Positions 1 through 16,400 of a DNA stretch of 64,000 bases are shown piece after piece (position 1 is the first letter of the stretch; every line of letters begins with the position of its first letter). Both the position numbers and the translations under genes were made by a program. The notes below the pieces were generated by a model that worked only from the letters and a program-made list of their open reading frames with translations, was not told where the DNA came from and ran no database searches. Location of the stretch: contig NZ_LHZU01000141.1 of NCBI RefSeq assembly GCF_001580995.1, positions 1-64,000 of the forward strand. The letters are read 5' to 3'. The stretch comes from Acetobacter senegalensis. Its GTDB lineage: Bacteria > Pseudomonadota > Alphaproteobacteria > Acetobacterales > Acetobacteraceae.

Positions 1-986
1 GGATCATTCCCGCCATTACGGTGCCCGACCGCAACGGCCATCCCGCCAATGTGGTGCTTGGGTTCCCCACTCTGGAGGAATATGAAACGGACAGCGCCCA
101 CGCCAACATCTATTTTGGCGCCCTGATTGGCCGTTACGCCAACCGATTGGCCAACGGAACCTTTCCGCTGGATGGCCAGACCATTCATACAACCGTCAAC
201 AACCCACCTAACACCCTGCACGGTGGCCTGAACGGGTTTGACAAGAAAATATGGCATGTGCGCCAACTCTCTGGCCTCCCCCATGCAGTGGGGGCCGAAC
301 TGACTCTGACTAGCCCGGATGGTGAAGAAGGCTTTCCCGGCACGCTGCACACCACGGTGGATTACATTCTGGATGACAGTAACCGCCTGAGCATTCGCTA
401 TCGCGCCACCACGGATCGGCCCACCGTGGTAAATCTCACCAACCACAGCTATTTCAACCTCGCAGGTGAAGGGGCCGGGTCCATTGAAAACCATACGCTC
501 CAGATCAACGCGGACTCCTTCACGCCGGTTGATCACGCAGCCATTCCCACCGGGCAGATTGCGTCCGTCGGCAATACGCCGCTGGATTTCCGCACCCCTC
601 ATCGAATTGGCGACCATCTGCGGAGCAACCATCCTCAAATGCTGATCGGTCGCGGGTATGATCACAACTGGATCGTGAATGGATATGATGGCAAAACCCA
701 GCGCCTTGCCGCTACGGTAACTGATCCGGTCTCAGGCCGAACGCTCTCGGTATTCACCACGCAGCCGGGCATACAGGTTTACACGTCAAATTCGCTGGAT
801 GGCACCTATGCTGGCCCCTCAGGCCACGCGTACCGCCAGACGGATGCCATTGCACTGGAAACCCAGCACTATCCTGACTCTCCCAACCATCCTGCTTTTC
901 CAACCACCACCCTGCGCCCCGGCGAGCAGTTTGACCACACCACCAGCTTCCAGTTTGGCATAGCGGGCACCTCCACAACGCCATAA
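1..986 (+). CDS. galM: Aldose 1-epimerase (mutarotase), 5' end cut off by window edge
   Basis: This enzyme interconverts the alpha and beta anomers of aldoses such as glucose and galactose. The reading frame is open from the first bases of the window, so the true start lies upstream; the GTG at 21 is an internal Val, not a start. Family motifs are visible: the substrate-binding LHGG, the catalytic-His segment NLTNHSYFNLAG, the YDHNW block, and the C-terminal catalytic Glu in ALETQHYPDSPN. The C-terminus is complete and a GC-rich hairpin follows. About 30-40 N-terminal residues are probably missing. The product may be cytoplasmic or exported; the missing N-terminus prevents a decision. Confidence 0.93.
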   Translation, partial: IIPAITVPDRNGHPANVVLGFPTLEEYETDSAHANIYFGALIGRYANRLANGTFPLDGQTIHTTVNNPPNTLHGGLNGFDKKIWHVRQLSGLPHAVGAELTLTSPDGEEGFPGTLHTTVDYILDDSNRLSIRYRATTDRPTVVNLTNHSYFNLAGEGAGSIENHTLQINADSFTPVDHAAIPTGQIASVGNTPLDFRTPHRIGDHLRSNHPQMLIGRGYDHNWIVNGYDGKTQRLAATVTDPVSGRTLSVFTTQPGIQVYTSNSLDGTYAGPSGHAYRQTDAIALETQHYPDSPNHPAFPTTTLRPGEQFDHTTSFQFGIAGTSTTP

Positions 987-1016
987 AACGGGGTGCGAGA
1001 AAGAGGGAAAGAAAGT

Positions 1017-1048
1017 CCGTCCGTCCCGGGAAACGGACGGCGGCTTTT
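1017..1048 (+). terminator. Probable terminator after the aldose epimerase
   Basis: An inverted repeat CCGTCCGT / ACGGACGG (1017-1024 and 1033-1040) is followed by CGGCTTTT. It lies about 30 bases after the epimerase stop codon, as expected for a rho-independent terminator. Confidence 0.6.
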
Positions 1049-1156
1049 CTCTTCTGCTTTCTGGTCTCCAGATTTCTTTGTGGAGAAAACACCCGATGCG
1101 CCCCTGGAAGAGCCTCTGGGGCGGGCTTCACCCTCGCTTCCCTCCAAGCACAGCAC

Positions 1157-1191
1157 AAAAAAAAACGGGGCCTCCCGAAGAAGGCCCCGTT
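1157..1191 (-). terminator. Rho-independent terminator of glnA
   Basis: On the minus strand AACGGGGCC pairs with GGCCCCGTT (1183-1191 with 1164-1172), followed by a run of nine T. It lies about 30 bases downstream of the glnA stop codon. Confidence 0.85.
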
Positions 1192-1221
1192 CCTATCCGC
1201 CAAAAGGTCTGAAAAGACTGA

Positions 1222-2667
1222 TCAGACGGAGTAGTACATTTCAAATTCAACCGGGTGCGGCGTGTGTTCGAAGCGATACACGTCTTCCCACTTGATGTTG
1301 ATGTAGCTTTCAATCTGGTCCTTGGTGAACACACCGCCAGCCAGCAGGAACTCGTGATCAGCCTGCAGCGCTTCCAGCGCTTCACGCAGGGAGCCTGCAA
1401 CTGTCGGGATCTGCTTCAGTTCTTCCGGCGGAAGATCATACAGATCCTTGTCCATGGCATCGCCCGGGTGGATCTTGTTCTTGATACCATCCAGACCAGC
1501 CATCAGCATGGCAGCGAAGGCCAGATAGGGGTTAGCCGTGGGGTCCGGGAAGCGGACTTCAACGCGCTTTGCCTTGGGGTTGGTTGCGTAAGGAATACGG
1601 CAGGATGCAGACCGGTTGCGAGCGGAATAAGCCAGCAGCACAGGTGCTTCAAAGCCGGGAATCAGACGCTTGTAGGAGTTGGTGGAGGGGTTGGTGAACG
1701 CGTTCAGCGCCTTGGCGTGCTTGATGATGCCGCCGATGTAGTACAGCGCGGTATCAGACAGGTCAGCATAGCCATTGCCAGCAAAGGTCGGCTTGCCGTC
1801 TTTCCAGATGGACTGGTGAACATGCATGCCGGAGCCGTTATCCCCATAAATGGGCTTGGGCATGAACGTTGCGGTCTTGCCGTAGGACTGCGCGACGTTG
1901 TGGATACAGTATTTGTAGATCTGCATGAAGTCAGCAGAACGCACCAGCGTATCGAACTTGGTGCCCAGTTCGTGCTGGGACTGCGCCACTTCATGGTGGT
2001 GCTTTTCGATCGGCAGGCCCATTTCACCCATGGTTGCCAGCATTTCCGCACGCAGGTCGGATTCGCTGTCCACCGGAGCAACGGGGAAATAGCCGCCCTT
2101 CACGCCCGGACGATGGCCCATGTTGCCTTCCGGGTATTCCTTCAGGGAAGCGCCAGGCCCTTCAATGCTGTCCAGCTGGAACTTGCCGAAGTTGGGGCCG
2201 GTGCCAAAGAGCACGTTATCAAAGATAAAGAATTCGGCTTCCGGACCAAAGAACGCTGTATCACCCAGCCCGGTGGACTTCAGATACTGTTCTGCCAGTT
2301 TGGCGGTGGAGCGCGGGTCACGGTTATAGGGCTGCCCGGTGGACGGCTCGATAATGTCACAGAACAGGATCAACTGCGGACGGGCAGAGAACGGGTCCAT
2401 TACTGCGGTTTCAGGGTCCGGCAGCAGAACCATGTCGCTTTCGTTGATGGCTTTCCAGCCAGCAATGGAAGACCCATCAAACATGAAGCCTTCGGTAAAG
2501 GTATCGTCCTCAATCGTGGTGACGTACTGCGTGGTGTGGTGCCACTTGCCGCGCGGATCTGTAAAGCGCAGGTCAACCAGTTCAACCGAATTCTCCTGAA
2601 TCAGGTCAAACACCTTGGCAATTGCTGCGGCTTTGGCATCACTCGCAGACGTTGTCTTTTTCACCAT
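1222..2667 (-). CDS. glnA: Glutamine synthetase, type I
   Basis: It makes glutamine from glutamate, ammonia and ATP in the cytoplasm. The 481-residue product matches bacterial GSI along its length, with about 12 extra residues at the N-terminus (Lys/Ala-rich) compared with the usual 468-470. The motif [10 protein letters not shown] near residue 410 contains the Tyr that is adenylylated by GlnE in enterobacterial-type GSI, so covalent control is likely. Metal- and ATP-binding blocks ([18 protein letters not shown]) are intact. It follows glnB by 115 bases on the same strand, the common alphaproteobacterial glnB-glnA operon order. A strong terminator follows the gene. Confidence 0.97.
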
Positions 2668-2782
2668 TCTCTCTTCACCTACAACCTGTTGCGCACCGGA
2701 ACTCTTCCAGCACAGCTAGGATTATCAAACGCACGCCATGCCCTGCGGCATATCCTGAACCCGCACAAGGGCCGGACAGCCA

Positions 2783-3127
<345 letters not shown>

Positions 3128-3361
3128 TCATCAATATATCACTGCTGTACCCTGTTTGAGGGGTCCGTCTTCACTGCTGCCGCACCCGTGAGGGCATGGA
3201 CGCTCAAGCCGAACGCATCCAAACTTGCACGGGTTGGCCACCGGAGCAATCGGGCAGATAGGAAATAGTATCGATAAAGCACTGACCTCCCCACCCTGAT
3301 GCAGGCATGGCACCAGTTTTTCCCCCTTAATTTACCCTAGACCTCAACAAGGAACCCAGAC

Positions 3362-4534
3362 ATGACAAAACCGCTGAACAGACAGTTAGCGGCGCTGCCA
3401 ACCACCATTTTTACCGTTATGTCTGAACTGGCCCGCCAGCACGGAGCCATAAATCTCGGTCAGGGCTTTCCGGATACGGAAGGCCCGCACGATATTGTGC
3501 AGGCTGCGGCAGACGCCCTGCTTGACCAGCGCAATCAATATGCGCCTCTCACAGGTCTGCCAGAATTACGCGCAGCCGTAGCCCATTCAAACGCCCGGTT
3601 TCAGAGAATCGAGGTTGATCCCGAGTCTGAGGTGGTCGTGACCTCTGGTGCGACGGAAGCGCTTGCAGCATCCCTCATGGCGTTGATCGAACCGGGCGAT
3701 GAGGTGGTTCTGATCGAACCCCTTTATGATACCTATCTGCCTATGGTCCGCCAGCTTGGCGGGGTCCCCCGTATCGTGCGGCTGGAACATCCCGGCTGGA
3801 CCCTGCCCAGGCAAGCACTGGCGGAGGCCTTTTCCGCCCGCACCAAGGCGATTCTCCTCAACACCCCCATGAACCCCACTGGCAAAGTGTTCTCCCCCGA
3901 TGAACTGACGTTCATCGCGGGGCTGCTGAAGCAGCACGATGCCTATGCCATCTGTGACGAAGTCTATGAGCACCTGACCTTCAATACCCCTCATCTCTCC
4001 CTTATGGCCCTGCCTGACATGCGGGAGCGCTGCCTGCGCATTGGCAGTGCCGGGAAAAGCTTCTCCCTGACCGGGTGGAAAGTGGGCTACGTTACCGCCC
4101 CTGCCCCGCTTGCGGCGGTGGTGGCCAAGGCTCATCAGAATCTGGTGTTCGCCACGCCCCCCAATCTTCAGCGCGCGGTGGCCTACGGCCTGAACAAGGA
4201 CGAACGCTATTTTGTCGAACTCTCGGCCGATCTGGCCCACAAGCGCGATCTTCTCTCCGCCGGATTACGTGGGGTTGGGCTGGACGTCCTGCCCTGCCAA
4301 GGCAGCTACTTTGTCATGGCGGACATCACCCCGCTGGCGAATGGGCTGGATGACATGGCCTTCGCCCGCCTGCTGACAGAACAGGCCGGTGTGACCACAA
4401 TCCCGGCCTCCGCCTTTTATGAACCCTCCAATGGTGCTCCCCCCACACATCTGCTGCGCTTTGCATTCTGCAAGCAGGAAAGCGTGTTGCAGGAAGCCGT
4501 AAACCGTATTGAAGCGTGGCATAAACGCATCTGA
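3362..4534 (+). CDS. PLP-dependent class I/II aminotransferase
   Basis: A 390-residue fold-type I aminotransferase. The opening TIFTVMSELARQHGAINLGQ and the block TGLPELRAAVA are typical of the methionine/kynurenine aminotransferase subgroup (YbdL/KAT-like, often annotated as probable N-succinyldiaminopimelate or methionine aminotransferase). The PLP lysine lies in GSAGKSFSLTGWKVGY, and the MNPTGKVF and CDEVYEHL motifs are intact. The start is supported by AAGGAA about 10 bases upstream. It appears monocistronic; tRNA-His follows in the same direction. Exact substrate cannot be read from the sequence. Confidence 0.9.
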   Translation: MTKPLNRQLAALPTTIFTVMSELARQHGAINLGQGFPDTEGPHDIVQAAADALLDQRNQYAPLTGLPELRAAVAHSNARFQRIEVDPESEVVVTSGATEALAASLMALIEPGDEVVLIEPLYDTYLPMVRQLGGVPRIVRLEHPGWTLPRQALAEAFSARTKAILLNTPMNPTGKVFSPDELTFIAGLLKQHDAYAICDEVYEHLTFNTPHLSLMALPDMRERCLRIGSAGKSFSLTGWKVGYVTAPAPLAAVVAKAHQNLVFATPPNLQRAVAYGLNKDERYFVELSADLAHKRDLLSAGLRGVGLDVLPCQGSYFVMADITPLANGLDDMAFARLLTEQAGVTTIPASAFYEPSNGAPPTHLLRFAFCKQESVLQEAVNRIEAWHKRI

Positions 4535-4608
4535 AAAAATTTTGCGCTCGTCCCTCACTCTTGCATTGACGGACGGAGCGCATTTCTCTAAACGACCCCT
4601 AGCTGTGT

Positions 4609-4685
4609 GGCGGACGTAGCTCAGTCGGTAGAGCGCCGGTTTGTGGTACCGGTTGTCGCGGGTTCGATCCCCGTCGTTCGCCCCA
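4609..4685 (+). tRNA. tRNA-His (GTG anticodon)
   Basis: The cloverleaf folds completely. The acceptor stem GCGGACG (4610-4616) pairs with CGTTCGC (4675-4681), and the extra 5' G at 4609 opposite C73 is diagnostic for tRNA-His. The anticodon stem is CCGGT/ACCGG with GTG at 4643-4645. The T-arm is GCGGG-TTCGATC-CCCGT, and CCA is encoded at 4683-4685. Confidence 0.96.
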
Positions 4686-5346
4686 GCTATATATTTCCCT
4701 TGAAAATTAACATTTTTGTTTATGGGCCACTCAGGTTCCTCTGTTTGCAGCATGCTGTGCATGCGGCCAGCAGCCCCTGAAGCAACTGTTCTGACTGCTG
4801 CTCCGGCCTTTGCGCTTCTTTAAAAGAAGGAGAACCGGGCAAAGCCAGTCTCACTCCTCACCGCGGCATCATAAAATTCAAATCTCCTGAACTCTCAGGC
4901 CATGGTGGCGTTGTAACACCCGAACTGTAACCAGACGTGATGCAACCCGTTTTGACAGGAGATGAACAGTGCCCTTGAAGAAGGACTGCTCGCGAGACGC
5001 CCTCCAGCAAAAACGCAGACATGAACTCTGGCGTAACAGTTTTCTGTTCACACGACCGCCGATCTCCCCATCGCTCATGACACCCGAGACCAGCGCCTGT
5101 TGTTCCGCGTCCTTGCCCGCTTCTCCGGCAAAGCTTCTTGCCCCTTCCGTAGCGGACGCTTCTGGCGCGCTTTCCCTTCATGCTGCTCGCAGGAAGGCGC
5201 CCCACGGATCGTAAACAGGTCACGGCCTGGCCCCACAAGACCTTCCTGCTGCACGATTTTCCAAAAATATCAGCCATCATGAACTGGTGGCCGTTCTGCG
5301 CGTCTTCACTCATGCCGTGAACAGACGGCGAAAGGATTGCATTCCG
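4686..5346. other. Intergenic stretch with no supported gene
   Basis: About 660 bases lie between tRNA-His and the glycosyltransferase. Overlapping reading frames exist on both strands but none has a convincing start, codon pattern or recognisable protein. The last part holds the AAAGGA ribosome-binding site of the glycosyltransferase at about 5331. I see no clear RNA gene. Confidence 0.5.
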
Positions 5347-6483
5347 ATGCTCATTACGGACACAGACGCCCAGACCCATCAGCTCACTACTTTTCAGCCT
5401 CTCTCTTCATCCTATCTGCAACGATCACGTATTGTCGCCATTCCGGCCTGTAATGAGGCCGAACATATTGTGCCCTGCCTTATGGCCCTTGCCCGGCAGG
5501 AAGACTTCCTGCCCCACAAAGTAATTGTATGGGTCAACAACACACAGGATGACACCCGGCAACAGATTCACGCCTTGCAGGATGCCCTGCCTTTTGCGGT
5601 AGAAAGCGTTTCTGTTTCCTATTCACCAGATCAGGCGCATGCAGGCCGTGCCCGGCATGATGCCATGGCCCATGCAGCCCAACACGCACCACCCGATGCC
5701 CTTCTTTTTACCACAGATGCAGATGGAGAAGTTGCACCAGACTGGATGAAGCAGACCCTTGAAGCGTTCATCCGCTACAATGTCGCCGCCGTTTTTGGGC
5801 GAGCCCTTCTCCTTCCTTCCGAATTTCAGAAAATTCCTTTGCATCTGCATCAGGATGACGAGAAGGAGCAAGCCTACGCGGCTTTACTGGAACACATCAA
5901 AGCCCTTCTGGTACCAACCCCCTATGACCCATGGCCCCGCCATAACGAACGCTCGGGTGCCAGTATTGCTGTAACCCGCGAAGCATGGCAGCAGGTGGGC
6001 GGTATTCCGCCTGAACCTTTGAGTGAAGATCGGGCCTTTTACACCGCATTAAGGCAGGCGGCCCTCCCCGTACGCCACGCCCCAGACGTGAAAGTCTATG
6101 TCTCCGCGCGTCTGGTAGGGCGCGCCCGTGGGGGCATGGCTGATACCATTGCCCGACGCATCATGCAGCAGGATGATTATCTGGATGACGCACTGGAACC
6201 CGTTTCCATATGCATGCTGCGGACGAGGCGTCCACTCAAAGAGAATAAGAAATATCTTGATATAAAAAATATTCTTTCAAATTCCCCAAAAAAACCTGTT
6301 CGCGTAAAGCGTGCTGACCTGCACCTGCATCTCCGCAGAGCCCAACGCGTCATTGATTTTCTGCTTCACAAACAGGCCTACTCGTTTTTTACGGTGCCGC
6401 ATACCGCAGGCGATCCAGCCGGTAGGTCTCGCCCCGCTCAGTATGGTCGGTCACCCAATGATATTGATGACAAGCCTGAATAA
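5347..6483 (+). CDS. Family 2 glycosyltransferase
   Basis: A 378-residue GT-A fold glycosyltransferase without transmembrane segments, probably cytoplasmic. The nucleotide-binding IPACNEAEHI opens the domain (about residue 30), the metal-binding DxD is in TTDADGEV (about 120), and a catalytic-type ED sits in LSEDRAFYTALR (about 225). The start at 5347 is chosen over an upstream frame start at 5287 because AAAGGA lies about 10 bases before it. The last 95 bases overlap the 3' end of the methyltransferase on the other strand. It converges on the deacetylase/methyltransferase operon, and functional linkage to it is inferred from content. Donor and acceptor are unknown. Confidence 0.85.
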   Translation: MLITDTDAQTHQLTTFQPLSSSYLQRSRIVAIPACNEAEHIVPCLMALARQEDFLPHKVIVWVNNTQDDTRQQIHALQDALPFAVESVSVSYSPDQAHAGRARHDAMAHAAQHAPPDALLFTTDADGEVAPDWMKQTLEAFIRYNVAAVFGRALLLPSEFQKIPLHLHQDDEKEQAYAALLEHIKALLVPTPYDPWPRHNERSGASIAVTREAWQQVGGIPPEPLSEDRAFYTALRQAALPVRHAPDVKVYVSARLVGRARGGMADTIARRIMQQDDYLDDALEPVSICMLRTRRPLKENKKYLDIKNILSNSPKKPVRVKRADLHLHLRRAQRVIDFLLHKQAYSFFTVPHTAGDPAGRSRPAQYGRSPNDIDDKPE

Positions 6484-6985
6484 AGCATTCGGCAGCTTCA
6501 TCTCCAGTGCAAGGCGTATCTGTTTCGCCGGTCCAGTTAACCGTCATTAACGTTGCAGCCTGTGACAGATTTTCCATAATGCGTTCAACAAGTTTTTTAA
6601 TATCGCCCGGTGCCATGAAATACAGAACTTCTGAAATCACGATCATATCGCAGCCACCTACCGCAGATATGGGGTAATCTTCGGGTAAAAACCCTTCAAA
6701 AAATTTTACGTTTTTCAAATCAGAACATCTGTTCCGGGCTATATGTAAGGCCGTGGAAGACGCATCCACCGCCAGAACGCGCCCACACCGTGCAGCAAGA
6801 GCCTTGGTGCCCACCCCTACGGCACACCCGAGTTCAACACAGAAATTGATCTGCTGCTTTGGTAGGCATGACAGAAGACGAGACAGTTTTTCCTGTTCAT
6901 ACAGACTATTTTCAAAATTCCACGGATCAGGATTTTTCTGAAACAGGGCATCAAAAATATCGGGAGACCATGTTTTCTTGGTCAT
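6389..6985 (-). CDS. NodS-like class I SAM-dependent methyltransferase
   Basis: A 198-residue Rossmann-fold methyltransferase. The N-terminal pattern FDALFQKNPDPWNFENSLYE resembles the NodS family (N-methyltransferases acting on deacetylated chitooligosaccharide in rhizobia). SAM motif I is VELGCAVGVGT and the acidic ribose-binding residue is in VLAVDAS. It is the last gene of a three-gene operon: its ATG overlaps the PIG-L stop codon by four bases (6982-6985). Its 3' end overlaps the convergent glycosyltransferase. The NodS resemblance suggests methylation of a freed amine on a glycan or glycolipid, but this is inference. Confidence 0.85.
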   Translation of the reverse strand: MTKKTWSPDIFDALFQKNPDPWNFENSLYEQEKLSRLLSCLPKQQINFCVELGCAVGVGTKALAARCGRVLAVDASSTALHIARNRCSDLKNVKFFEGFLPEDYPISAVGGCDMIVISEVLYFMAPGDIKKLVERIMENLSQAATLMTVNWTGETDTPCTGDEAAECFIQACHQYHWVTDHTERGETYRLDRLRYAAP

Positions 6986-7713
6986 GACAAAAGATAGATT
7001 TCATATGTCTGAATGATCTTTTCCAACAGATTTTCCGGCATGACAAATCCATCTGGATCATCCTGTATCACTAGCCCGCGCTGGCTTTCATGAGCCTCCA
7101 CCGCATGCCGTTTTGTGGCCAGATGCGCGCCTATGTCTAACCGCCACCCTGCTGGAAAAGGTTGATCAAGAACACCGTCAGACGGCAGGGTAAGACCCCA
7201 GACCGGATAAGCCAGCAAGCGCAGATGGGGCAACATGGCTTTCAAAACTTTCCCCATCAGCCACACAGCTTCATGATCACAATGCGGATCATGCCGCCAT
7301 GGCACCAGAAGCGTATTGCAATCATAATGGAGGGCCAATTCGGCCAAACGATCCACAGTGCTCCTGAATTCCTGCCCTTCTGTTGGAACCGCCGTATCAC
7401 GCAGGCCCAGAAAATAAAGGCGTTCCGGGGGAAGGCCCAGAATTCTTGCAGCCTCGCGCGCCTCTTTCTCTCTTTGCTGCGTCAGGCGCTCCTCCGGCCA
7501 CTCTCGTGATGCTGGATGAGAGCCTGACCCATCTGAAACGATCACCACCACTGGCGGGCGGCCTCTGGCCACAGCTTCAGCAATAAAGCCGCCACATCCC
7601 AGACTTTCATCATCTGGGTGCGGAGCAAGAATCAACGCCGTTCCTGGCGCTATTTCTTCAATATCCCTTACCGGAAGGCGGAAAAGTTCTGAAATGAGCT
7701 CTCCATTTTTCAT
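6982..7713 (-). CDS. PIG-L family deacetylase
   Basis: A 243-residue zinc-dependent de-N-acetylase of the PIG-L/LmbE family (relatives act on GlcNAc-PI, mycothiol and bacillithiol precursors). The metal site motif APHPDDESLGCGG is at about residue 30 and the second metal motif HDPHCDHEA at about 165, so the active site appears intact. No signal peptide or membrane segment is seen. It overlaps the upstream acyl-CoA dehydrogenase-like gene (7710-7713) and the downstream methyltransferase (6982-6985) by ATGA junctions, implying translational coupling. Probably it removes an N-acetyl group from an amino sugar made with the neighbouring glycosyltransferase. Confidence 0.9.
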   Translation of the reverse strand: MKNGELISELFRLPVRDIEEIAPGTALILAPHPDDESLGCGGFIAEAVARGRPPVVVIVSDGSGSHPASREWPEERLTQQREKEAREAARILGLPPERLYFLGLRDTAVPTEGQEFRSTVDRLAELALHYDCNTLLVPWRHDPHCDHEAVWLMGKVLKAMLPHLRLLAYPVWGLTLPSDGVLDQPFPAGWRLDIGAHLATKRHAVEAHESQRGLVIQDDPDGFVMPENLLEKIIQTYEIYLLS

Positions 7714-8843
7714 GATCTATCTTCCGGCCATTCACGGTCTGCAAACCACGCTGCCGCTTCTGTCAGGGTTTCATCAGGGGCCGGTTGGCGCAGATACGTG
7801 GCCAAATCCCGTAGTGTCTGTTCAACACGCTTACCGTGAATAAATGCGGAAAGCCCCAGCGCCTGCTGAACCAGCGTTATAAGCTGCACGCCCGCCTGCT
7901 CAACAGCAATACGGGCCAGATTCACCATGGCTGCGCACTCCTCTGGTTCAGCAGGCGTGCCATAAACAGATCGGGCTGCACGATGCACCCACAGGCTTGC
8001 CGTCTCGCGCAGAATAAGCGCTTCACCAATACGCCGCTGTTGATGCGGATTTTCCGCCCGCCCCCGCGCCTGAAGCTCTTGACGCATCAGGTCCACCAGC
8101 ACATCCATGCCGCCCAGCGCTACGGCTGACCCACGCCATGCCCCGGCAGAAAATTCCGGTTGCCGCAAATAATCACCAGGCCGGCCGATAATCGCATCGG
8201 GTGAAATCTCCATTCCGGAAAAATTGTGGGCGCCAGTTCCACTCCCTGCCATACCTGTCAGGTGGCCGGGCCCTTTGCCAATCCGCTCAGGCTCATCGGT
8301 AGAGACCAGAACCATGACGTCCTGCCCCAGTGCATTCCGTGCAGTGATCAGGGCCATACCCACCTGGCGCACGCCACTACAGAACCCTTTAGCTCCCTTT
8401 AACTGATACCCGGTTGCCGTCAGTTCCAACGTGACCGGCTGGGCACCGTCAGTCACCCAGATTCCGCCCAGAACGCCTTGTTTCACAAAAGCAGCCAAAG
8501 CGTTCCGTTGGGTGTCCGAACCATACAGGGACACAAGCCGCACAACATTGATATGCCCTTCCAGACATCGCCCCAGAGACAGGCTCAGTCGCCCCGAAAT
8601 GCGCAGCAGATCAATCAGCCCTTGCATTCCCTCAGGCGATTCATGCAGCCCTAATCCACCATTTTTGACAGGCAACGCAGCAGACAATGTCCCCAGTTGC
8701 GTCAGTTGATCCAACAATACCGAGGGAAACGCGCCTTCTTCCCCTCCTGAAATGGTCGAAGGATGAGCCGCGCAAAGCCGCTTTAACGCGCTGCGGAAAG
8801 CGGCAATATCCTGCGTTTTTTCGGGCAGATAGCAAACGGGCAT
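7710..8843 (-). CDS. Acyl-CoA dehydrogenase-like flavoprotein
   Basis: A protein of about 377 residues with the acyl-CoA dehydrogenase architecture: an N-terminal helical region, a middle beta domain (GGIWVTDG, LKGAKGFCSGV) and a C-terminal helical domain. The ATG at 8843 is preferred over the GTG at 8882 because AGGGAG lies about 10 bases before it. The C-terminal stretch reads RDLATYLRQPAPDE where classical enzymes carry the EGTxEI block with the catalytic Glu; that block is not visible. It may therefore be a non-standard family member, for example a flavin-dependent oxidase or hydroxylase. It is the first gene of the operon with the PIG-L and NodS-like genes. Confidence 0.82.
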   Translation of the reverse strand: MPVCYLPEKTQDIAAFRSALKRLCAAHPSTISGGEEGAFPSVLLDQLTQLGTLSAALPVKNGGLGLHESPEGMQGLIDLLRISGRLSLSLGRCLEGHINVVRLVSLYGSDTQRNALAAFVKQGVLGGIWVTDGAQPVTLELTATGYQLKGAKGFCSGVRQVGMALITARNALGQDVMVLVSTDEPERIGKGPGHLTGMAGSGTGAHNFSGMEISPDAIIGRPGDYLRQPEFSAGAWRGSAVALGGMDVLVDLMRQELQARGRAENPHQQRRIGEALILRETASLWVHRAARSVYGTPAEPEECAAMVNLARIAVEQAGVQLITLVQQALGLSAFIHGKRVEQTLRDLATYLRQPAPDETLTEAAAWFADREWPEDRS

Positions 8844-9088
8844 GACTGGCGTTCTCCCTGCTGACACCGGGTGCCAGAACACGCACCAAACGCATCAGAA
8901 AAGAAGAAGTTCATCTTTCGTCCTCTCTGCCAGGCACGGAACCAACGCGCAAAGACCCGTTTGAAAGGCTTCCGTGACCCTGTTTTTCTATAAAAAGAGA
9001 AGATCGGCTGGATAATATCTTGAGGGTCAGAGAGCAAGAACTGTTATTTTTGTGTCATATTTTTTTATTTTGTTTGTTTTTTAGATTA

Positions 9089-9103
9089 GGATAACTCTTA
9101 TCC
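9089..9103. promoter_or_regulatory. Short perfect palindrome, possible operator
   Basis: GGATAA and TTATCC flank a three-base spacer in an A+T-rich region, about 30 bases before the start of the 57-residue membrane protein and about 245 bases upstream of the divergent acyl-CoA dehydrogenase-like gene. It is the right size for a small regulator site, but there is no functional evidence. Confidence 0.35.
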
Positions 9104-9133
9104 ACCAGAGATAATATTGAAAAAGAGACGATC

Positions 9134-9307
9134 ATGCTTGTCCCTAAAAGAATTTCCTGGCTTCATATATCATATACTTTTCTTGCAATTGCTGTTCTCT
9201 CTCTGTGGTCTGGATACAGTAAATCGCATCTTCCCATCAAAATTTTGTATTTTATTCCTATTTTCCTGTCTTTAAGAATTTTATGGAAATCAAGAAAAAA
9301 TAAGTAA
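9134..9307 (+). CDS. Small hydrophobic membrane protein, 57 residues, unknown function
   Basis: This is a short frame of 57 codons, starting MLVPKRISWLHISYTFLAIA and ending with the basic tail WKSRKNK. Two hydrophobic segments (about residues 9-26 and 34-51) are separated by a short polar turn, consistent with a two-helix inner-membrane protein with both ends positive and cytoplasmic. AAAGAGA lies about 8 bases before the ATG. The surrounding DNA is clearly richer in A+T than its neighbours, which may mean transfer. I do not recognise the family. It could be an accessory peptide of a membrane complex. Confidence 0.5.
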   Translation: MLVPKRISWLHISYTFLAIAVLSLWSGYSKSHLPIKILYFIPIFLSLRILWKSRKNK

Positions 9308-9495
9308 CCCAATATTCTCTCGTTCTTTCATAAAATCATATGACCTGCCTCTTGATCAGGAACCATAGAAAAAGCCATGTTTTCCATCTGTGATTGGGAA
9401 GCTACGAGAACGCCTTAAGGAATGGCGAGTATTATCCTGAGCTTCTTTTCCATCGCCTCAATCATGATCTGGATGGTCTGAATGGCGATCAGAGC

Positions 9496-9658
9496 GAGAG
9501 GCTGTTTGAGCCGTTTGTCTGCTCAGCGTGATAGGTCTTTATATAGCGGAATAGTTTGGATTTTTGTGCCTATGGCCCGTAGTGCTCTCCCAATCCACCT
9601 GCCGGGTTCAAAACACCAATCACCAACTCGGAATTGATGGTGTTTCAAACAGGCTCTC
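9496..9658. mobile_element. Candidate 163-bp MITE-like or IS remnant
   Basis: The left end reads GAGAGGCTGTTTGA and the right end, read on the minus strand, GAGAGCCTGTTTGA: 13 of 14 bases are identical in inward-facing orientation. The trinucleotide AGC flanks both sides and could be a target duplication, or chance. No transposase is encoded inside. Copies of the end motif recur elsewhere in the window. Confidence 0.4.
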
Positions 9659-9678
9659 AGCGGAAGAACCAGCGGGGC

Positions 9679-9708
9679 AGAAGAAAGGGGTAAAATCCCG
9701 TTTCTTCT
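9679..9708 (-). terminator. Hairpin downstream of the peptide transporter
   Basis: AGAAGAAA and TTTCTTCT (9679-9686 and 9701-9708) enclose an inner GGG/CCC pair. The hairpin lies 27 bases after the transporter stop codon on the minus strand. There is no long T run after it, so the terminator call is moderate. Confidence 0.45.
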
Positions 9709-9734
9709 ACCCCGTTACCATAAATGTGCGGAAA

Positions 9735-11234
9735 TTATTCCGCTTGCCGGGCTTCCTGCGCGGCACGATGCTGCGCATCCCACCGGCGGGTGAACGGCAG
9801 GCACAGTGCAAAAAGCAACGTGCAACCAACAGCCAACAAGAACAGGGTGCGGAACAACCCTGCATAGATAGGCAATGTTACAGATGGGTCCCCACCACTT
9901 ACGGCAGACCCCATAGCAGCCAGATTGGCCATCATGCTGCCCAGATACATGGCGACCCCGTTTGATACACAATAACTGCCCATCATGAAGCCGCCCACAT
10001 TGGCAGGCACATAACGCGCCACCACGGCCAGACCCAGAGCACTGATCAGCAACTCTCCAACAGACAAGGCACCGTAAGCCCAGAACATCACCCACGGAGA
10101 CACAAGGGTTGTGCTTGTGGCCGCACTCCACCACCAGATCAGAAAGGCCAGTGCTACCAACGAGAACCCAACAATAAATTTCTCGGCAATGGGAAAACTC
10201 CATCCCCGATCTTCCATGGCTTTATACAGCCAGGACAGAACAGGGCTGGCAGCCATGATCCACACCGGATTAAGTGCCTGAAACTGCCCGGCGGACATGG
10301 AAAACAGCGGCACACCAAACAGCGTAAACTGAGACTGCACATCACGCAGCGCAAACAGCGTGAGTGACGTGACCATCTGCTGATAAAATACAAAATACAG
10401 CATGGTCTGCACAATCAACAGATAAGCCAACCGCAGGCCGGGCCGATGCGCTGGCGTTGCCCGCCGGTACAACAGAACCCAGATAATGCCGATAACCAAC
10501 GCCGCAATCCAGACACAGGCCTTCCCTGCTGCGGGCACGCCCAGAATGCCCACCATGACCACAAGGGCCACCACCACCCCGGCCAGCACACCGGCAAGAT
10601 GCCGGGGCACAATAAGCCGGAAATCCGGCGCGGAACCGATATTCCGCAAGCGGCTCCGGAAAATTCCATAGCAGACAAGGCCAAACACCAACCCGGCCGA
10701 ACATACCAGAAAGGGCGGGCCCCACCCGTAATGCTGCTGCAACCACGGTGTTAACAGGAGCGAAAACGTGGAACCAACGTTGATGCTCATGTAATAAATG
10801 GTGAAAGCCACATCTATCCGGGCATCATCCCCTTCATAGATACGGCGTACCAGATTGGCGGCATTGGCCTTGAACAGGCCGTTCCCCAAGGCAATGACGG
10901 CCAGCGCCACGAACAGGGCAAACTGCCCACCCAGATCCAGCCCCAGCAGAGCATAGCCAATGGCCAGCACGGCGGCCCCCATTGTCATGGTGCGCCGGGA
11001 CCCCAGCAGGGCGTCTCCAATCCAGCCACCAATAGCCGGGGCGGCATAGGTCACGGCGGAAAACGTGCCCCACAGCAGATTGGCCTGAGCATCATCAAAC
11101 CCAAGGCGTTGCACCATATACAGCAGCAGGATGCCCTGCATGCCGTAGAACCCGAACCGTTCCCACAGTTCGATAGCCAGCACGACTGAGAAAGACTGCG
11201 AACGTGTTGGCGAAGAAGACAAAGATGCCGTCAT
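9735..11234 (-). CDS. POT/PTR2 family proton-coupled oligopeptide transporter
   Basis: A 499-residue inner-membrane symporter that imports di- and tripeptides with protons. The hallmark ELWERFGFYGMQG in the first membrane helix contains the proton-coupling ExxER motif, and GNGLFKANAANLV and FTIYYMSINVGS match the PTR2 signature blocks. The overall layout resembles E. coli DtpA/DtpB with 12-14 membrane helices. The ATG at 11234 has AGGA four bases upstream; the GTG at 11261 is an alternative with the SD too close. It appears to be monocistronic and divergent from icd. Confidence 0.93.
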   Translation of the reverse strand: MTASLSSSPTRSQSFSVVLAIELWERFGFYGMQGILLLYMVQRLGFDDAQANLLWGTFSAVTYAAPAIGGWIGDALLGSRRTMTMGAAVLAIGYALLGLDLGGQFALFVALAVIALGNGLFKANAANLVRRIYEGDDARIDVAFTIYYMSINVGSTFSLLLTPWLQQHYGWGPPFLVCSAGLVFGLVCYGIFRSRLRNIGSAPDFRLIVPRHLAGVLAGVVVALVVMVGILGVPAAGKACVWIAALVIGIIWVLLYRRATPAHRPGLRLAYLLIVQTMLYFVFYQQMVTSLTLFALRDVQSQFTLFGVPLFSMSAGQFQALNPVWIMAASPVLSWLYKAMEDRGWSFPIAEKFIVGFSLVALAFLIWWWSAATSTTLVSPWVMFWAYGALSVGELLISALGLAVVARYVPANVGGFMMGSYCVSNGVAMYLGSMMANLAAMGSAVSGGDPSVTLPIYAGLFRTLFLLAVGCTLLFALCLPFTRRWDAQHRAAQEARQAE

Positions 11235-11477
11235 AAAGTCCTGACCATATTGTGATAACACTCCCTAGAACAGATATGCCTACCCCGTGCAAGCTGCGGG
11301 AAACTGGCCTTTTATGAGCACACTCCGCCAAGGCAGGCACGCCTGCAACGGCTGTGCTGTCAGGAATGTGAATAGCCGCTGGCTCTCAAGGCTTTTAATT
11401 CGTTCATCCGCCTCTTGCATGATGCCCATACGCATTGCGCAAATTTTTCGAGATTTTTTCTGGAACGGATTTCAACC

Positions 11478-12698
11478 ATGGCAAAAATCAAGGTCAAAAA
11501 CCCCGTCGTAGAGATGGATGGTGATGAAATGACCCGTATTATCTGGCATTTCATCCGGGAACGGCTGATTTTGCCCTATCTCGATATTGACCTGAAATAC
11601 TATGATCTGGGCATTGAACATCGTGACGCCACGGACGACAAGGTGACGGTTGAGGCAGCCGAAGCCACAAAACGCTATGGCGTTGCGGTGAAATGCGCCA
11701 CCATCACCCCGGATGAAGCCCGCGTGAAGGAATTCGGGCTGAAGCGGATGTATCGCTCCCCCAATGGCACCATCCGCAACATTCTGGATGGCACCATCTT
11801 CCGCGAACCGATCATCTGCTCAAACGTGCCGCGTCTGGTTCCACACTGGACCAAACCGATTGTCATCGGTCGTCACGCCTATGGCGATATCTATCGCGCG
11901 GCGGAAACCAAGATCCCCGGCCCCGGCAAGGTTACCCTTACCTATGTGCCGGAAGGTGGCGGTGAAACCGTGACGCTGGATGTGCATGACTTCAAGGGCC
12001 CCGGTGTGGCCCTTGGCATGCACAACACCCGCGCCTCCATTGAAGGCTTTGCCCGCGCTTCCCTCTCCTACGGGCGGGATCGTGGTCTGCCGGTGTATCT
12101 GTCCACCAAGAACACCATTCTGAAAGCCTATGATGGCATGTTCAAGGATGTGTTTCAGGAAGTGTACGACAAAGAGTTCAAGGCAGACTTCGAAAAAGCC
12201 GGCCTGACCTACGAACACCGCCTGATTGATGACATGGTAGCCTGCGCCCTGAAGTGGAACGGCGGGTATGTCTGGGCCTGCAAGAACTATGATGGCGACG
12301 TGCAGAGCGACATTGTGGCACAGGGCTTTGGCAGCCTCGGGCTGATGACCTCCGTTCTGCTGAACCCCACGGGAGATGTGGTGGAAGCTGAAGCCGCCCA
12401 CGGCACAGTTACCCGCCACTTCCGTGAACACCAGAAGGGCAAGCCCACCAGCACCAACCCCATTGCCTCCATTTTCGCATGGACACGCGGGCTGGCGTAC
12501 CGTGGCAAGTTTGATGACACCCCGGACGTGGTGCATTTTGCTGAAACACTGGAAAAAGTGTGTATCGACACGGTGGAATCCGGCCAGATGACCAAGGACC
12601 TCGCCATTCTGGTTGGCAAGGATACAAAATGGCTGGACACGCAGCCTTTCCTTGATGTGCTGGATGCCGGGCTGAAAAAGGAACTCGCCAAATCCTGA
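11478..12698 (+). CDS. icd: NADP-dependent isocitrate dehydrogenase
   Basis: It catalyses oxidative decarboxylation of isocitrate to 2-oxoglutarate in the TCA cycle. The 406-residue sequence beginning [20 protein letters not shown] is the homodimeric eukaryotic-like type (IDH1/IDH2-like) common in alphaproteobacteria, rather than the E. coli-type Icd. The substrate-binding blocks KSPNGT-like (RSPNGTIRN) and NYDGDVQSD are present. An upstream frame start at 11415 is rejected because the family starts at the MAKIKV segment. A strong terminator follows. Confidence 0.95.
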
Positions 12699-12725
12699 CC
12701 TGAAACATCCTTCAGGTAGCATGGC

Positions 12726-12758
12726 AGAGGGGGCGCTCCTGGGCGCTCCCTCTTTTTT
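12726..12758 (+). terminator. Rho-independent terminator of icd
   Basis: AGAGGGGGCGC pairs with GCGCTCCCTCT and is followed by TTTTT, about 30 bases after the icd stop codon. Confidence 0.88.
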
Positions 12759-12856
12759 ATGGGTAATGTTGTAGGGCTACCCCATTGCGCCCGCCCGCGT
12801 GGTAGCGCAAAAAAACAGCTTTCATCAGCCGGACCAAAGGGGAGATCCGCCGCGCC

Positions 12857-13876
12857 ATGACTGACATGCCGATTGAGACAGACGTCGCCATTATCGGCGC
12901 TGGCCCTGCCGGGCTTTTTGCCGCCTTTCAATGCGCCATGTTGCGCCTGCGGTGTTTGTTAATTGACGTTCTGCCGGAAGTAGGTGGCCAGTGCGTGGCG
13001 CTGTACCCAGAAAAACCCATCTATGATATTCCGGCCTGCCCGGCGGTAGAAGGGGCGCAGCTTATTGCCAATCTTGAAAAACAGATTGAACCTTTTGCCA
13101 TCCCTCGCCTGCTGAAACACCGCATTGAAAGCCTGACCGGCCACCGCGGCGCCTTTACGCTGGGCACGGACAAAGGGGCGCAGGTCAACAGTAAGGCTGT
13201 TATCATTGCTGCCGGGGCGGGTGCTTTCGGCCCCAACCGGCCGCCACTTGATGGGCTGGATGCCTTTGAAGGCACAGGAGCCGTGCAGTATTACGTGCGC
13301 CGGAAAGCTGATTTTGAAGGCCGACGCATTGTGATTGCCGGCGGCGGCGATTCCGCACTGGACTGGGCTCTGGCGCTGAAAGACAAGGCGGAAAAACTGT
13401 ATCTTGTTCACCGTCGGGATCGCTTCCGTGGCGCGCCGGAAAGCCTGCGCCTGTTGGATGAAGCTGTTGCCGCAGGGCAGATTGAAAAAGTGGTGCCTTA
13501 TCAGCTTCATGCCCTGCGTGGGCAGAACGGCGTGCTGGAAGCTGTGGAGGTTGCAGATCTGGATGGCGCAACCCGTGCGCTAGAGGCCGATACCCTTCTG
13601 CCCTTCTTCGGGCTGGCAACAGACCTTGGCCCCATTGCCCGTTGGGGCGTGGATACCGTGCGTTCCACCATCCCGGTTGTGCCCTCAAGTTGTGAAACCA
13701 ACATGCCCGGCGTGTTCGCCATTGGCGATGTGGCCACCTACCCCGGCAAACTGAAACTCATTCTGCAGGGCTTCAGTGAAGGGGCCATGGCTGCGCATGC
13801 CATCTACCCCATTGTGAACCCGGATCAAGCGCTGCATTTTGAATACTCCACCAGCAAAGGGGTTCCCGCTGCCTGA
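12857..13876 (+). CDS. Ferredoxin-NADP reductase, thioredoxin reductase-like type
   Basis: A 339-residue flavoprotein that moves electrons between NADP(H) and ferredoxin or flavodoxin. The FAD-binding motif IIGAGPAGLFAAFQ is at the N-terminus, the NADPH-binding motif IAGGGDSALDWAL in the middle, and FAIGDVATYPGK near the end. The redox CxxC of thioredoxin reductases is absent, which places it in the TrxR-like FNR group (YumC type). The start is supported by GGGGAGA. The stop is about 130 bases before alr; linkage is not obvious. Confidence 0.88.
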   Translation: MTDMPIETDVAIIGAGPAGLFAAFQCAMLRLRCLLIDVLPEVGGQCVALYPEKPIYDIPACPAVEGAQLIANLEKQIEPFAIPRLLKHRIESLTGHRGAFTLGTDKGAQVNSKAVIIAAGAGAFGPNRPPLDGLDAFEGTGAVQYYVRRKADFEGRRIVIAGGGDSALDWALALKDKAEKLYLVHRRDRFRGAPESLRLLDEAVAAGQIEKVVPYQLHALRGQNGVLEAVEVADLDGATRALEADTLLPFFGLATDLGPIARWGVDTVRSTIPVVPSSCETNMPGVFAIGDVATYPGKLKLILQGFSEGAMAAHAIYPIVNPDQALHFEYSTSKGVPAA

Positions 13877-14008
13877 GACCGACCTTTGCGTCCTTTTCAC
13901 TCTTATGGATAATAAGGTCTCTTGAACGGAAAGAGGGAAAGCAGCCATGCATATGATAAGGCCAGACCGCCTTCTTCTGCTTTCCCTCCCCCGAATCCCC
14001 TCGGCCTC

Positions 14009-15139
14009 ATGAGCATACCGCCGCAGAATGGATGGGAAGGTGGCCGCCTGCTGATTGATCTGGCCGCCATTGCCGCCAACTACATGATCCTTCACTCTCT
14101 TGCGGGGCCGCAGACAGAAGCTGGCGCGGCAGTGAAAGCCAATGCCTACGGGTTGGGCCTGGCTGAAATTGCGCCTGTTTTATACGAGGCTGGCTGCCGC
14201 ACTTTCTTTGTGGCGCATCTGGCCGAAGGCGTGGCCCTGCGGAGCCTGATTGCCCCGGACAGCCGTATTTTCGTGCTGCATGGCCCACCACCCGATACCG
14301 CACCCGCATTTCTGGCCCATAATCTGCTGCCCGTGCTGAACAGCCTGCCGCAGATTCAGGAATGGCAGGCTCTTGCCCAAAATGAAAAGAGTGCCCTCCC
14401 TGCGGCCTTGCAGCTGGATACCGGTATGTCCCGTTTTGGGCTGACAGAAGACGACGTGAACGCACTCAGCCACAATAACGGGCTGGCCGGAATTGAAACC
14501 ATACTGGTGATGAGCCATCTGGCGTGCGCTGATACACCAGAGCACCCGCTGAACCGGCACCAACTGGACACTTTTGAACGCTTGCGTAAACGGCTGCCAC
14601 CGGCTCCGGCGAGCCTCTCCGCCTCATCCGGCATATTTCTTGGGCCGGAGTGGCGGTTTGACCTCGTGCGACCAGGGGCTGCCCTATACGGAATCAATCC
14701 CACACCGGGGCAACCGAACCCAATGCAGCCCGTCATTCGGCTGCAAGCCCGTGTGATCCAGACGCGCCACGTACCGGCTGGAGCCCATGTTGGCTATGGC
14801 GCGACCTTTGTGACCCAACGCCCCACTAACATCGCATTGTTGGGCATTGGGTATGGAGATGGCTTTCCGCGAAGGCTTGGCGGAAAAGGTGTGGCCGTTT
14901 TTCCTGAACAGCCTGACATCAAACTGCCAATAATCGGGCGTATCTCCATGGACTCACTCGCTGTGGATATTACGGATCTTGCAGGGCTGCCCCCCGCGCC
15001 CGGCGTAGCTTTTGATCTGATTGGCCCCCATAACCCCCTTGATGAAACGGCTTTTCTGGCAGACACCATCGGCTACGAATTGCTGACAGATCTCGGTTCA
15101 CGCTACCACCGCACCCACCACGATCCCCGGAAAGGATGA
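14009..15139 (+). CDS. alr: Alanine racemase
   Basis: It interconverts L- and D-alanine for peptidoglycan and, here, probably for alanine catabolism. It has 376 residues. The PLP lysine is K43 in AVKANAYGLG and the catalytic Tyr is in HVGYGATF (about residue 265). GRISMDSLAVDIT and GYGDGFPR are family blocks. A longer frame begins at a TTG (13922) but its extra 29 residues do not look like the family, so the ATG at 14009 is taken. dadA starts four bases after the stop, making this an alr/dadX-dadA operon. Confidence 0.93.
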   Translation: MSIPPQNGWEGGRLLIDLAAIAANYMILHSLAGPQTEAGAAVKANAYGLGLAEIAPVLYEAGCRTFFVAHLAEGVALRSLIAPDSRIFVLHGPPPDTAPAFLAHNLLPVLNSLPQIQEWQALAQNEKSALPAALQLDTGMSRFGLTEDDVNALSHNNGLAGIETILVMSHLACADTPEHPLNRHQLDTFERLRKRLPPAPASLSASSGIFLGPEWRFDLVRPGAALYGINPTPGQPNPMQPVIRLQARVIQTRHVPAGAHVGYGATFVTQRPTNIALLGIGYGDGFPRRLGGKGVAVFPEQPDIKLPIIGRISMDSLAVDITDLAGLPPAPGVAFDLIGPHNPLDETAFLADTIGYELLTDLGSRYHRTHHDPRKG

Positions 15140-15143
15140 CACC

Positions 15144-16400
15144 GTGAAAATCATCGTTCTCGGCGCCGGCGTCATTGGCACCACCTCTGCCTGGTACCTG
15201 TCCAAACTGGGCCATGAAGTGACCGTGGTGGACCGCCAGCCTGCACCCGGGCTTGAAACCTCTTTTGCCAATGCAGGGCAGGTTTCGCCCGGATATTCCA
15301 CGCCCTGGGCAGGACCATCCTTGCCGTTACAGGCCATGAAGTGGATGCTCCAGCGGCACCATAGTCCGCTTGTTATCCGCAAGCGGTTTGATCTGGCCAT
15401 GTTCCGGTGGATTGAGCAGCTTCTGAAAAACTGCAACGCCCATGCCTATGACATCAACAAATCCCGCATGTTGCGCGTTGCTGAATACAGCCGTGACTGT
15501 CTGGACGCGCTGCGTGAAGAAACCGGCCTGACGTATGATGACCGCCAACGCGGGCTGATCCAGCTTTTCCGCACCAACAAACAGGTGGACAAGATTCAGC
15601 GGGATATGCGCCTGCTCTCTGAAAGCGCCATTCCCCATACGCTGCTGACGGTAGACCAGATTCTGGAACACGAACCCGGCCTGGCCCATGCACGACACCT
15701 GTTGAAAGCAGGGCTGTATCTACCGGGAGATGAATCGGGCGATGCCCACGTTTTCACGCAACGCCTTGCCAAGATGGCGGAAGCTCAGGGCGTCACCTTC
15801 CTTTACAATACCACTATCAAAGGAATGGATGCCGCTGCGGATGAGATCATGTCTGTCCGCACCAGCGCTGGCCATCTGCGGGCAGATGCCTATGTCGTGT
15901 CTATGGGCAGCTACAGCCCATTATTGCTGAAACCATTGGGAATTCACCTGCCTGTTTATCCGGTAAAAGGCTATTCCCTCACGCTGCCCCTGACAGATGA
16001 AAGCCACGCCCCTTCGTCCACTGTGAATGATGAAACCTACAAGGTTGCCATCACGCGGCTGGGCAACCGTATCCGGGTAGGCGGCACGGCTGAATTAACG
16101 GGCTATAATCTGCGCCTCAGCCCGGACCGGCGCGAGACACTTGAGCTCTCGTTCTCTGAACTGTTTGGCGGGGGAGATCTGTCAGCCGCAACATACTGGA
16201 CAGGCCTGCGCCCCAACACACCAGACGGCACACCCGTTATCGGCCCGGTATCCGCATTCAGAAACCTGTGGCTCAATACGGGTCATGGCACCTTGGGCTG
16301 GACCATGGCCTGTGGGTCAGGCCGTCTTATTGCTGATCTGATTCACGGCAGGAAGACCGATATCCCGGCTCTGGATCTTTCCCTCAGCCGTTACGCCTGA
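15144..16400 (+). CDS. dadA: D-amino acid dehydrogenase, small subunit type
   Basis: An FAD enzyme that oxidises D-alanine and other D-amino acids to 2-oxo acids and passes electrons to the respiratory chain at the inner membrane. The 418-residue product begins MKIIVLGAGVIGTTSAWYLS with the dinucleotide-binding GxGxxG. The segments SFANAGQVSPGYSTPW and NTGHGTLGWTMACGSG are diagnostic of DadA. The start is GTG with AAAGGA about 8 bases upstream. It is coupled to alanine racemase, so L-alanine can be converted to D-alanine and oxidised to pyruvate. Confidence 0.94.
   Translation: MKIIVLGAGVIGTTSAWYLSKLGHEVTVVDRQPAPGLETSFANAGQVSPGYSTPWAGPSLPLQAMKWMLQRHHSPLVIRKRFDLAMFRWIEQLLKNCNAHAYDINKSRMLRVAEYSRDCLDALREETGLTYDDRQRGLIQLFRTNKQVDKIQRDMRLLSESAIPHTLLTVDQILEHEPGLAHARHLLKAGLYLPGDESGDAHVFTQRLAKMAEAQGVTFLYNTTIKGMDAAADEIMSVRTSAGHLRADAYVVSMGSYSPLLLKPLGIHLPVYPVKGYSLTLPLTDESHAPSSTVNDETYKVAITRLGNRIRVGGTAELTGYNLRLSPDRRETLELSFSELFGGGDLSAATYWTGLRPNTPDGTPVIGPVSAFRNLWLNTGHGTLGWTMACGSGRLIADLIHGRKTDIPALDLSLSRYA

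Follow-up and report, generated by a model that had tools for sequence, protein, structure and literature searches.

Positions 5347 to 8843 of a 64,000-nucleotide stretch from the forward strand of Acetobacter senegalensis contig NZ_LHZU01000141.1 (the window) carry a compact set of four genes, coding for a glycosyltransferase (GT), a PIG-L-type deacetylase, a NodS-like methyltransferase (MT) and a flavoprotein with the acyl-CoA dehydrogenase (ACAD) fold. The set is a conserved unit across unrelated genera, a point on which there is hardly any room for doubt. Its best explanation, to which we give a probability of roughly 0.55, is a horizontally mobile, four-enzyme cytosolic module that would form part of the general stress response. 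The four genes are:

5347..6483, plus strand: GT, a family-2 glycosyltransferase (GT2), 378 amino acids (aa) counted from its ATG, with TDAD and SEDR motifs
6389..6985, minus strand: MT, a NodS-like S-adenosylmethionine-dependent methyltransferase, 198 aa, with the N-terminal motif DPW..YE
6982..7713, minus strand: PIG-L (LmbE-type) N-deacetylase, 243 aa, with HPDDE and DPHCDH intact
7710..8843, minus strand: ACAD-fold flavoprotein, 377 aa counted from its ATG

A preliminary description of this DNA had placed four open reading frames (ORFs) here, with ATGA junctions and a convergent GT, and all are present as it gave them: ATGA overlaps join ACAD to PIG-L and PIG-L to MT, and the convergent GT and MT overlap at their 3' ends by 95 nucleotides (nt). 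The GT frame as listed begins upstream, at a GTG at 5287, and an in-frame GTG at 8882 lies upstream of the ATG of ACAD. Pfam assigns the GT to PF00535 (E 1.1e-12), the MT to PF05401, NodS (E 4.7e-13, 49.9 bits against a cut-off of 24), and PIG-L to PF02585 (E 2.4e-25, 90 bits against a cut-off of 28.2); the matches of ACAD are weak and below cut-off (E ~6e-4 and ~7e-4), and NCBIfam equivalog cut-offs are reached by none of the four proteins. The flanking genes are, by Pfam, an aminotransferase and a POT transporter.

Comparison of gene neighbourhoods was the check proposed in the preliminary description, which named a lack of conservation as grounds for refutation; when carried out, it found the four-gene set in unrelated genera, and non-conservation is not borne out. 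Within the family, 47 of 120 genomes, own included, have a PIG-L match at E 0.001, and ACAD adjoins 24 of the 29 best-scoring non-own PIG-L loci (from 46 other genomes with a match). A phylum survey with an ACAD profile was positive in 30 of 397 genomes, own included, and within 1.5-kb flanks of the 29 non-own loci PIG-L is present in 25 and MT in 28. The set occurs in at least 6 of 289 genomes of a class-wide sample, own included; this is a minimum, since scoring was limited to the leading few candidates of each genome. A further 92 loci comprise 12 from plasmids and 80 from Pseudomonas (the best 80 of 511 confirmed). This named-genome survey is lopsided because the scan gave Pseudomonas only; its pattern came from an alignment of beta-, gamma- and actinobacterial ACADs, a cross-class alignment having yielded no pattern stretch. 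The order ACAD, PIG-L, MT is kept within 6 kb in 88 of the 92, the exceptions being two lone ACADs, Legionella lytica (PIG-L, MT, GT, ACAD) and Cupriavidus (PIG-L elsewhere), and 75 loci also have a GT match no more than 6 kb away. Plasmid copies are found in Komagataeibacter (the best plasmid match), Roseomonas, Bradyrhizobium, Jiella, Sphingomonas, Sulfitobacter, Paracoccus and Novosphingobium, and further in Cupriavidus, Pandoraea, Acinetobacter, Legionella lytica, Deinococcus, Nostoc and Kitasatospora, some with parts rearranged or missing; the phyla with the set number at least four, Pseudomonadota, Deinococcota, Cyanobacteriota and Actinomycetota.

The proteins have also diverged in step. 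Mantel tests on protein distances (55 loci, 999 permutations, with Pseudomonas thinned to 12 random loci and the duplicate genome L039, the same as L012, removed) gave r of 0.93 for ACAD with PIG-L, 0.82 for ACAD with MT and for PIG-L with MT, and 0.61-0.70 for pairs with the GT, none of the 999 permutations reaching as high. The GT is thus a looser member than ACAD, PIG-L and MT, and its placement at 54 loci varies: in 20 it lies downstream of the other genes on their strand, in 19 it precedes them on that strand, and in 15 it converges on them. In Methylobacterium aquaticum the GT and ACAD share one open frame of 788 codons, the first part of which matches the GT profile at E 9e-68. The loose placement of the GT and the large size of the families could suggest that four genes of separate pathways have become neighbours by chance, but the kept order, the overlapping frames, the shared Methylobacterium frame and co-evolution across phyla make this extremely improbable, and it was rejected on the neighbourhood comparison.

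Some loci have further features of their own. Of the 92 loci from plasmids and Pseudomonas, 43 have a second PIG-L match within 6 kb of ACAD; in one Pseudomonas (L082:11936-13989) the second PIG-L is followed by an alpha/beta hydrolase gene. In Cupriavidus (L079) PIG-L adjoins catalase, outside the operon. The lone module-type ACADs are at L076:8893-10059 (plasmid of Methylobacterium sp. FF17) and in L123 (P. anatoliensis), with no PIG-L, MT or GT within 6 kb.

The context in which the set recurs is that of general stress, not symbiosis or envelope synthesis, and a stress context for the set is very probable. In Pseudomonas, treZ/malQ/treY/glgX or Ku/LigD lie within 9 kb at 78 of 80 loci, the operon usually following treZ-malQ-treY-glgX and less often LigD/Ku. 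By a strict list (catalase, trehalose/GlgE or Ku/LigD) stress genes are present at 8 of 16 annotated non-Pseudomonas plasmid loci, i.e. in Bradyrhizobium, Sphingomonas, Acinetobacter (two), Legionella lytica, Sulfitobacter, Novosphingobium and Cupriavidus, against none of eight control stretches elsewhere on the plasmids (Fisher p=0.022). These controls were chosen manually, at round positions and with the loci already known, and come from 8 of the 16 plasmids. In Sphingomonas sp. gentR the set is directly followed by a catalase and a Zn-alcohol dehydrogenase gene, and genes of the same names, matched by name alone, are EcfG-dependent in Sphingomonas melonis Fr1 (PMC6599016, in excerpt). The set is not named in that excerpt, and nothing on it is found in the excerpt of PMC8092242.

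The same neighbourhoods would fit a modification of trehalose or maltodextrin, in which the GT2 acceptor is of trehalose or glucan type and the product a compatible-solute analogue bearing an amino or N-methylamino group. The placement of most Pseudomonas copies straight behind treZ-malQ-treY-glgX, otsAB beside the set in Acinetobacter haemolyticus, otsB and GH65 beside it in Legionella lytica and GlgE in Cupriavidus all agree with this; however, several copies have catalase or Ku/LigD as neighbours in stretches devoid of annotated trehalose genes, inspection by eye of the window ORFs of positions 1-16000 revealed no such gene, and a general stress island accounts for both types of neighbour. 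We therefore regard the trehalose explanation as unlikely and return to the general stress response.

Promoter motifs may point in the same direction. The EcfG motif was scored as GGAAC-N16-19-GTT within 300 nt upstream of the ACAD domain at alphaproteobacterial loci other than the window itself, and occurs in the sense direction at 7 of 58 loci against 0.73 expected, with 2 of 340 segments in a coding control. A first count, likewise without the window but still with the duplicate genome left out of the 58, gave 9 of 47 in sense and 8 of 47 in antisense (expected 0.57), with 3 of 16 upstream of the GT (expected 0.19) and none upstream of PIG-L (0/48) or MT (0/42), where about 0.5 was expected for each. 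The own genome has a NepR gene beside two sigma-70-family genes (extracytoplasmic function sigma) and an HWE/HisKA_2 kinase, and a divergent ORF of the same cluster looks PhyR-like by eye, with a sigma-like part and a receiver. Two sites lie upstream of ACAD in the window:

8889..8913, minus strand: candidate EcfG-type promoter facing ACAD, TGAAC-N16-CGTT, with one mismatch to GGAAC
8938..8961, plus strand: perfect EcfG-like site, GGAAC-N15-CGTT, directed away from the four genes

The motif and spacing of the site at 8913-8889 are the same in the sister species (genome G556). A small ORF at 9134-9307 on the plus strand, 57 aa and hydrophobic by eye, begins ~170 nt 3' of the site at 8938; it is missing in the sister species, since the alignment stops at 8913 and resumes at 9725.

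The patchy presence of the set at different sites makes horizontal mobility part of the best explanation. ACAD is found in 17 of 49 genomes of the genus, own included, and the flanking aminotransferase in 45 of the 49. Loci L169-L179 represent 11 of the 16 non-own matches, the remaining five being without a locus, and all 11 congener loci examined have ACAD, PIG-L and MT together. In the window and the sister species the set sits between tRNA-His and the POT transporter; congener G030 lacks the set and has tRNA-His and the transporter gene ~0.7 kb apart, and in three further congeners the set lies within ~1 kb of tRNA-Thr. The left border in the window is:

4610..4685, plus strand: tRNA-His

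The set searched as DNA has no match in the plasmid collection. To its right, at 9300-9734, is a suspected insertion-sequence remnant, likewise unmatched in that collection. In congener G514 (contig C1, ~1219563-1223983) the ACAD match is in two pieces ~3.3 kb apart, probably owing to an insertion.

The GT, PIG-L and MT proteins have intact signature residues. Asp-x-Asp and Glu-Asp motifs mark active GT2 enzymes, and D124, D126, E227 and D228 of the GT are invariant in 30 rows. The predicted GT model is GT-A-like, with a mean predicted local distance difference test (pLDDT) score of 85.1, and its nearest structures include WrtF, PcManGT and TarS (Z 20.1-21.3 over 176-206 residues). Envelope glycans are frequent targets of GT2 enzymes, and the set could accordingly be imagined to add an N-methylated hexosamine to lipopolysaccharide, a glycolipid or a capsule; the structural neighbours of the GT model, which include TarS/TarP, WrtF and chondroitin synthase, and the three other glycosyltransferases that adjoin the set in Novosphingobium speak for such an envelope or lipid-linked product. 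But the recurring set has no membrane protein, carrier, flippase or acyltransferase, the annotated GTs of Acinetobacter, Pandoraea and Cupriavidus are just 214-227 aa long, and the four window proteins look soluble: none has a strongly hydrophobic segment, the highest 19-aa hydropathy being 1.58, while the GT peaks at 1.22 and stays below 1.6 in 27 of 30 GT rows, some of them partial. An envelope role is improbable on these grounds, and a cytosolic module is preferred.

PIG-L belongs to its family by a score above the Pfam cut-off together with the metal and catalytic motifs, P31, H32, D34, D35, E36 and D142, H144, D146, H147 being invariant in 12 rows. Its profile matches diacetylchitobiose deacetylase first among PDB structures (E 2.9e-19), ahead of BshB, teicoplanin deacetylases and MshB. 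Since sugar transfer followed by PIG-L deacetylation also opens the synthesis of mycothiol and bacillithiol, a low-molecular-weight thiol or redox buffer of this kind was considered; the common GT and PIG-L start, the stress context and matches to BshB1 (53 bits) and to BshB/MshB structures favour it. The BshB1 match, however, falls far below the cut-off of 182.5, and the partner is a GT2 enzyme instead of the GT4 glycosyltransferase of the bacillithiol and mycothiol pathway. Moreover, the set has no cysteine ligase, and an N-methyltransferase would compete with cysteine ligation. The thiol pathway was rejected, and is very unlikely. For the MT, the best characterised PDB match is NodS (E 9.6e-29), followed by phosphomethylethanolamine methyltransferase (2.1e-16). 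The profile also matches 4ISC at E 9e-59 over its 164 residues, and one module MT therefore probably already has a structure; 4ISC could serve as a start for ligand docking or soaking.

The AlphaFold2 model of the flavoprotein is confident (pLDDT 93.3) and has the ACAD fold; the 50 structures listed match it with Z 35.9-38.1 and root-mean-square deviations of 2.5-3.4 over 342-357 residues. DszC/TdsC monooxygenases rank first both by sequence profile and by Foldseek, where KijD3 entries rank 36 and 38; no nitrososynthase is among the 50 VIA-align structure matches listed. Residues were compared with L161, a canonical ACAD of the own genome and the only canonical one, because two of the three own-genome ACAD-family references also lack the Glu. 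In none of 67 module proteins does the YEG motif retain its catalytic Glu (38 have Pro, 20 Ser and 9 another residue), all 67 have Gly at the second base position in helix G, which we take to be the catalytic site of isovaleryl-CoA dehydrogenase (IVD), and in all 67 the GTD loop is deleted. The His-Asn of the canonical same-genome ACAD is replaced by Ser-Gly in most (64 Ser and 62 Gly of 67), and the window protein has the conserved S156-G157. Since both catalytic-base residues and the GTD loop are lacking, the protein is probably not an acyl-CoA dehydrogenase but a flavin oxygenase or oxidase, to judge by its residues, and an ordinary dehydrogenase of MCAD or IVD type was rejected, neither catalytic Glu position being filled. 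The preliminary description had called it an acyl-CoA dehydrogenase-like flavoprotein; the likeness of fold stands, and a dehydrogenase identity has become improbable. It is presumably conserved as an enzyme, as E95, H97, W129, K152, Y225, R311, R352 and Q353 among others are invariant in members with as little as 20% identity to that of the window. In fold and sequence it is compatible with a class D flavin monooxygenase, a type of enzyme that uses reduced flavin and O2 and has a reductase partner; whether the enzyme is a monooxygenase or performs other flavin chemistry we put at even odds.

The ACAD gene of Deinococcus radiodurans (L070:7528-8727) has 779 codons, with an extra N-terminal ~400 aa, and in this species a helicase gene separates MT from PIG-L. 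A GT-ACAD fusion was expected from the length of the gene and was rejected, the extra ~400 residues having no match to the GT profile; they give a chance-level match to GH53 (E 0.012) and no solved relative (best E 0.8).

A number of observations weigh against the assignment of the set to the general stress response, or against the unity and chemistry proposed for it. The EcfG motif is equally enriched on the antisense strand (6/58 against 0.73 expected), and 51 of the 58 alphaproteobacterial loci have no perfect motif in the sense direction; the window site at 8889..8913 has a non-consensus -35 element, and sites with one mismatch occur at 0.73 per kb per strand. The 80 Pseudomonas loci, being related, represent few independent events. 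With a looser list, which adds PRC-barrel, CsbD and general-stress proteins, and in the controls also Hsp20, stress genes are found at 11 of 16 plasmid loci and 2 of 8 controls, which is not significant (p=0.08), 5 of the 16 are without stress genes even so, and none of these genes was recognised, partly by eye, among the window ORFs of positions 1-16000. As to unity, PIG-L is not beside ACAD at 4 of the 29 phylum loci, ACAD stands alone at 2 of the 92 (Methylobacterium FF17 plasmid and Pseudomonas anatoliensis), and in 37 alpha-like loci the GT correlates with the other three proteins at r=0.41-0.43 only. As to chemistry, monooxygenases and true ACADs are tied in Z (38.1 and 37.6) and are not separated by it, and the recurring set has no flavin reductase.

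If the four enzymes act in one pathway, the GT2 enzyme would transfer an N-acetylamino sugar, at the simplest guess GlcNAc from UDP-GlcNAc, to a small soluble acceptor, PIG-L would then remove the N-acetyl group, and the NodS-like MT would N-methylate the freed amine. The ACAD-fold flavoprotein would oxidise or hydroxylate the product, possibly at the amine; ACAD-fold nitrososynthases act in this way on amino sugars. The pathway would be switched on by the general stress response and would yield an intracellular stress metabolite. This ordering is the simplest that uses every enzyme, and its first three steps would follow from the chemistry of the families; N-methylation of an amino sugar is reasonably likely. 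We infer the substrate, acceptor, step order, flavin chemistry, product and role of the product, and likewise its nature as a modified amino sugar. There is a realistic chance of a new class of metabolite. In its fullest form, a tentative proposal that we hold to be less likely than the module as such, the set would make an undescribed class of stress metabolite, an N-methylated, flavin-oxidised and perhaps N-oxygenated amino-sugar glycoside, which would act as an intracellular protectant or redox compound in at least four phyla and travel on plasmids and islands as a transferable trait of stress tolerance. No paper on the set was returned by full-text searches of open-licence articles, supplementary tables aside; subscription literature may hold one.

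If true, a common mobile four-enzyme pathway has been hidden under four generic and unconnected gene names in carriers that include pseudomonads, Acinetobacter and acetic acid bacteria, and it may yield a new stress protectant. The wide conservation of an "acyl-CoA dehydrogenase" devoid of its catalytic base would be explained, and amino-sugar N-methylation of NodS type would appear to extend far beyond symbiosis. The four genes are compact, and the question of the product is therefore directly testable by expression in a laboratory host.

The module shares features with several known systems and differs from each. In comparison with the EcfG regulon, the motif is enriched upstream of alphaproteobacterial copies, whereas the ACAD-facing site of the window itself has one mismatch. 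The flavoprotein resembles DszC/TdsC in its Ser-Gly motif and missing base Glu, but identity is only ~20% and the window protein has invariant residues of its own (E95-x-H97, Y225, R311, R352-Q353); the nitrososynthases KijD3 and DnmZ are present as matches, ranked below DszC/TdsC. PIG-L has the HPDDE and DPHCDH motifs in common with PIG-L/LmbE deacetylases, yet falls under the equivalog cut-offs of BshB1, BshB2, Mca and MshB, and differs in recurrently adjoining an N-methyltransferase-like protein. The structure 4ISC was deposited as a "methyltransferase", a name that carries no function.

The closest parallel is the synthesis of Nod factors, in which glycosyl transfer, N-deacetylation and N-methylation are performed by NodC, NodB and NodS, the last N-methylating the de-N-acetylated sugar. 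The preliminary description had seen this logic in the set, and the part of it that concerns NodS holds: the module MT falls into the Pfam family of NodS, no characterised protein in the PDB search comes closer to it than NodS, and a deacetylase able to release the amine nearly always adjoins it. An actual Nod system it is not, and a true Nod cluster was rejected, none of the proteins answering to NodC, NodB, the NodS equivalog or NodA. NodC is a membrane-embedded chitin oligosaccharide synthase, whereas the window GT looks soluble; in place of the polysaccharide deacetylase NodB the module has PIG-L, which only PIG-L-type families match; the window MT scores 57.9 against the NCBIfam NodS cut-off of 300; and no NodA acyltransferase was found by Pfam in the four proteins, the flanking aminotransferase and the POT transporter, to which the search was confined. 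The module has a NodS-like enzyme beside a deacetylase of another family, adds a flavoprotein, and recurs in a context of stress.

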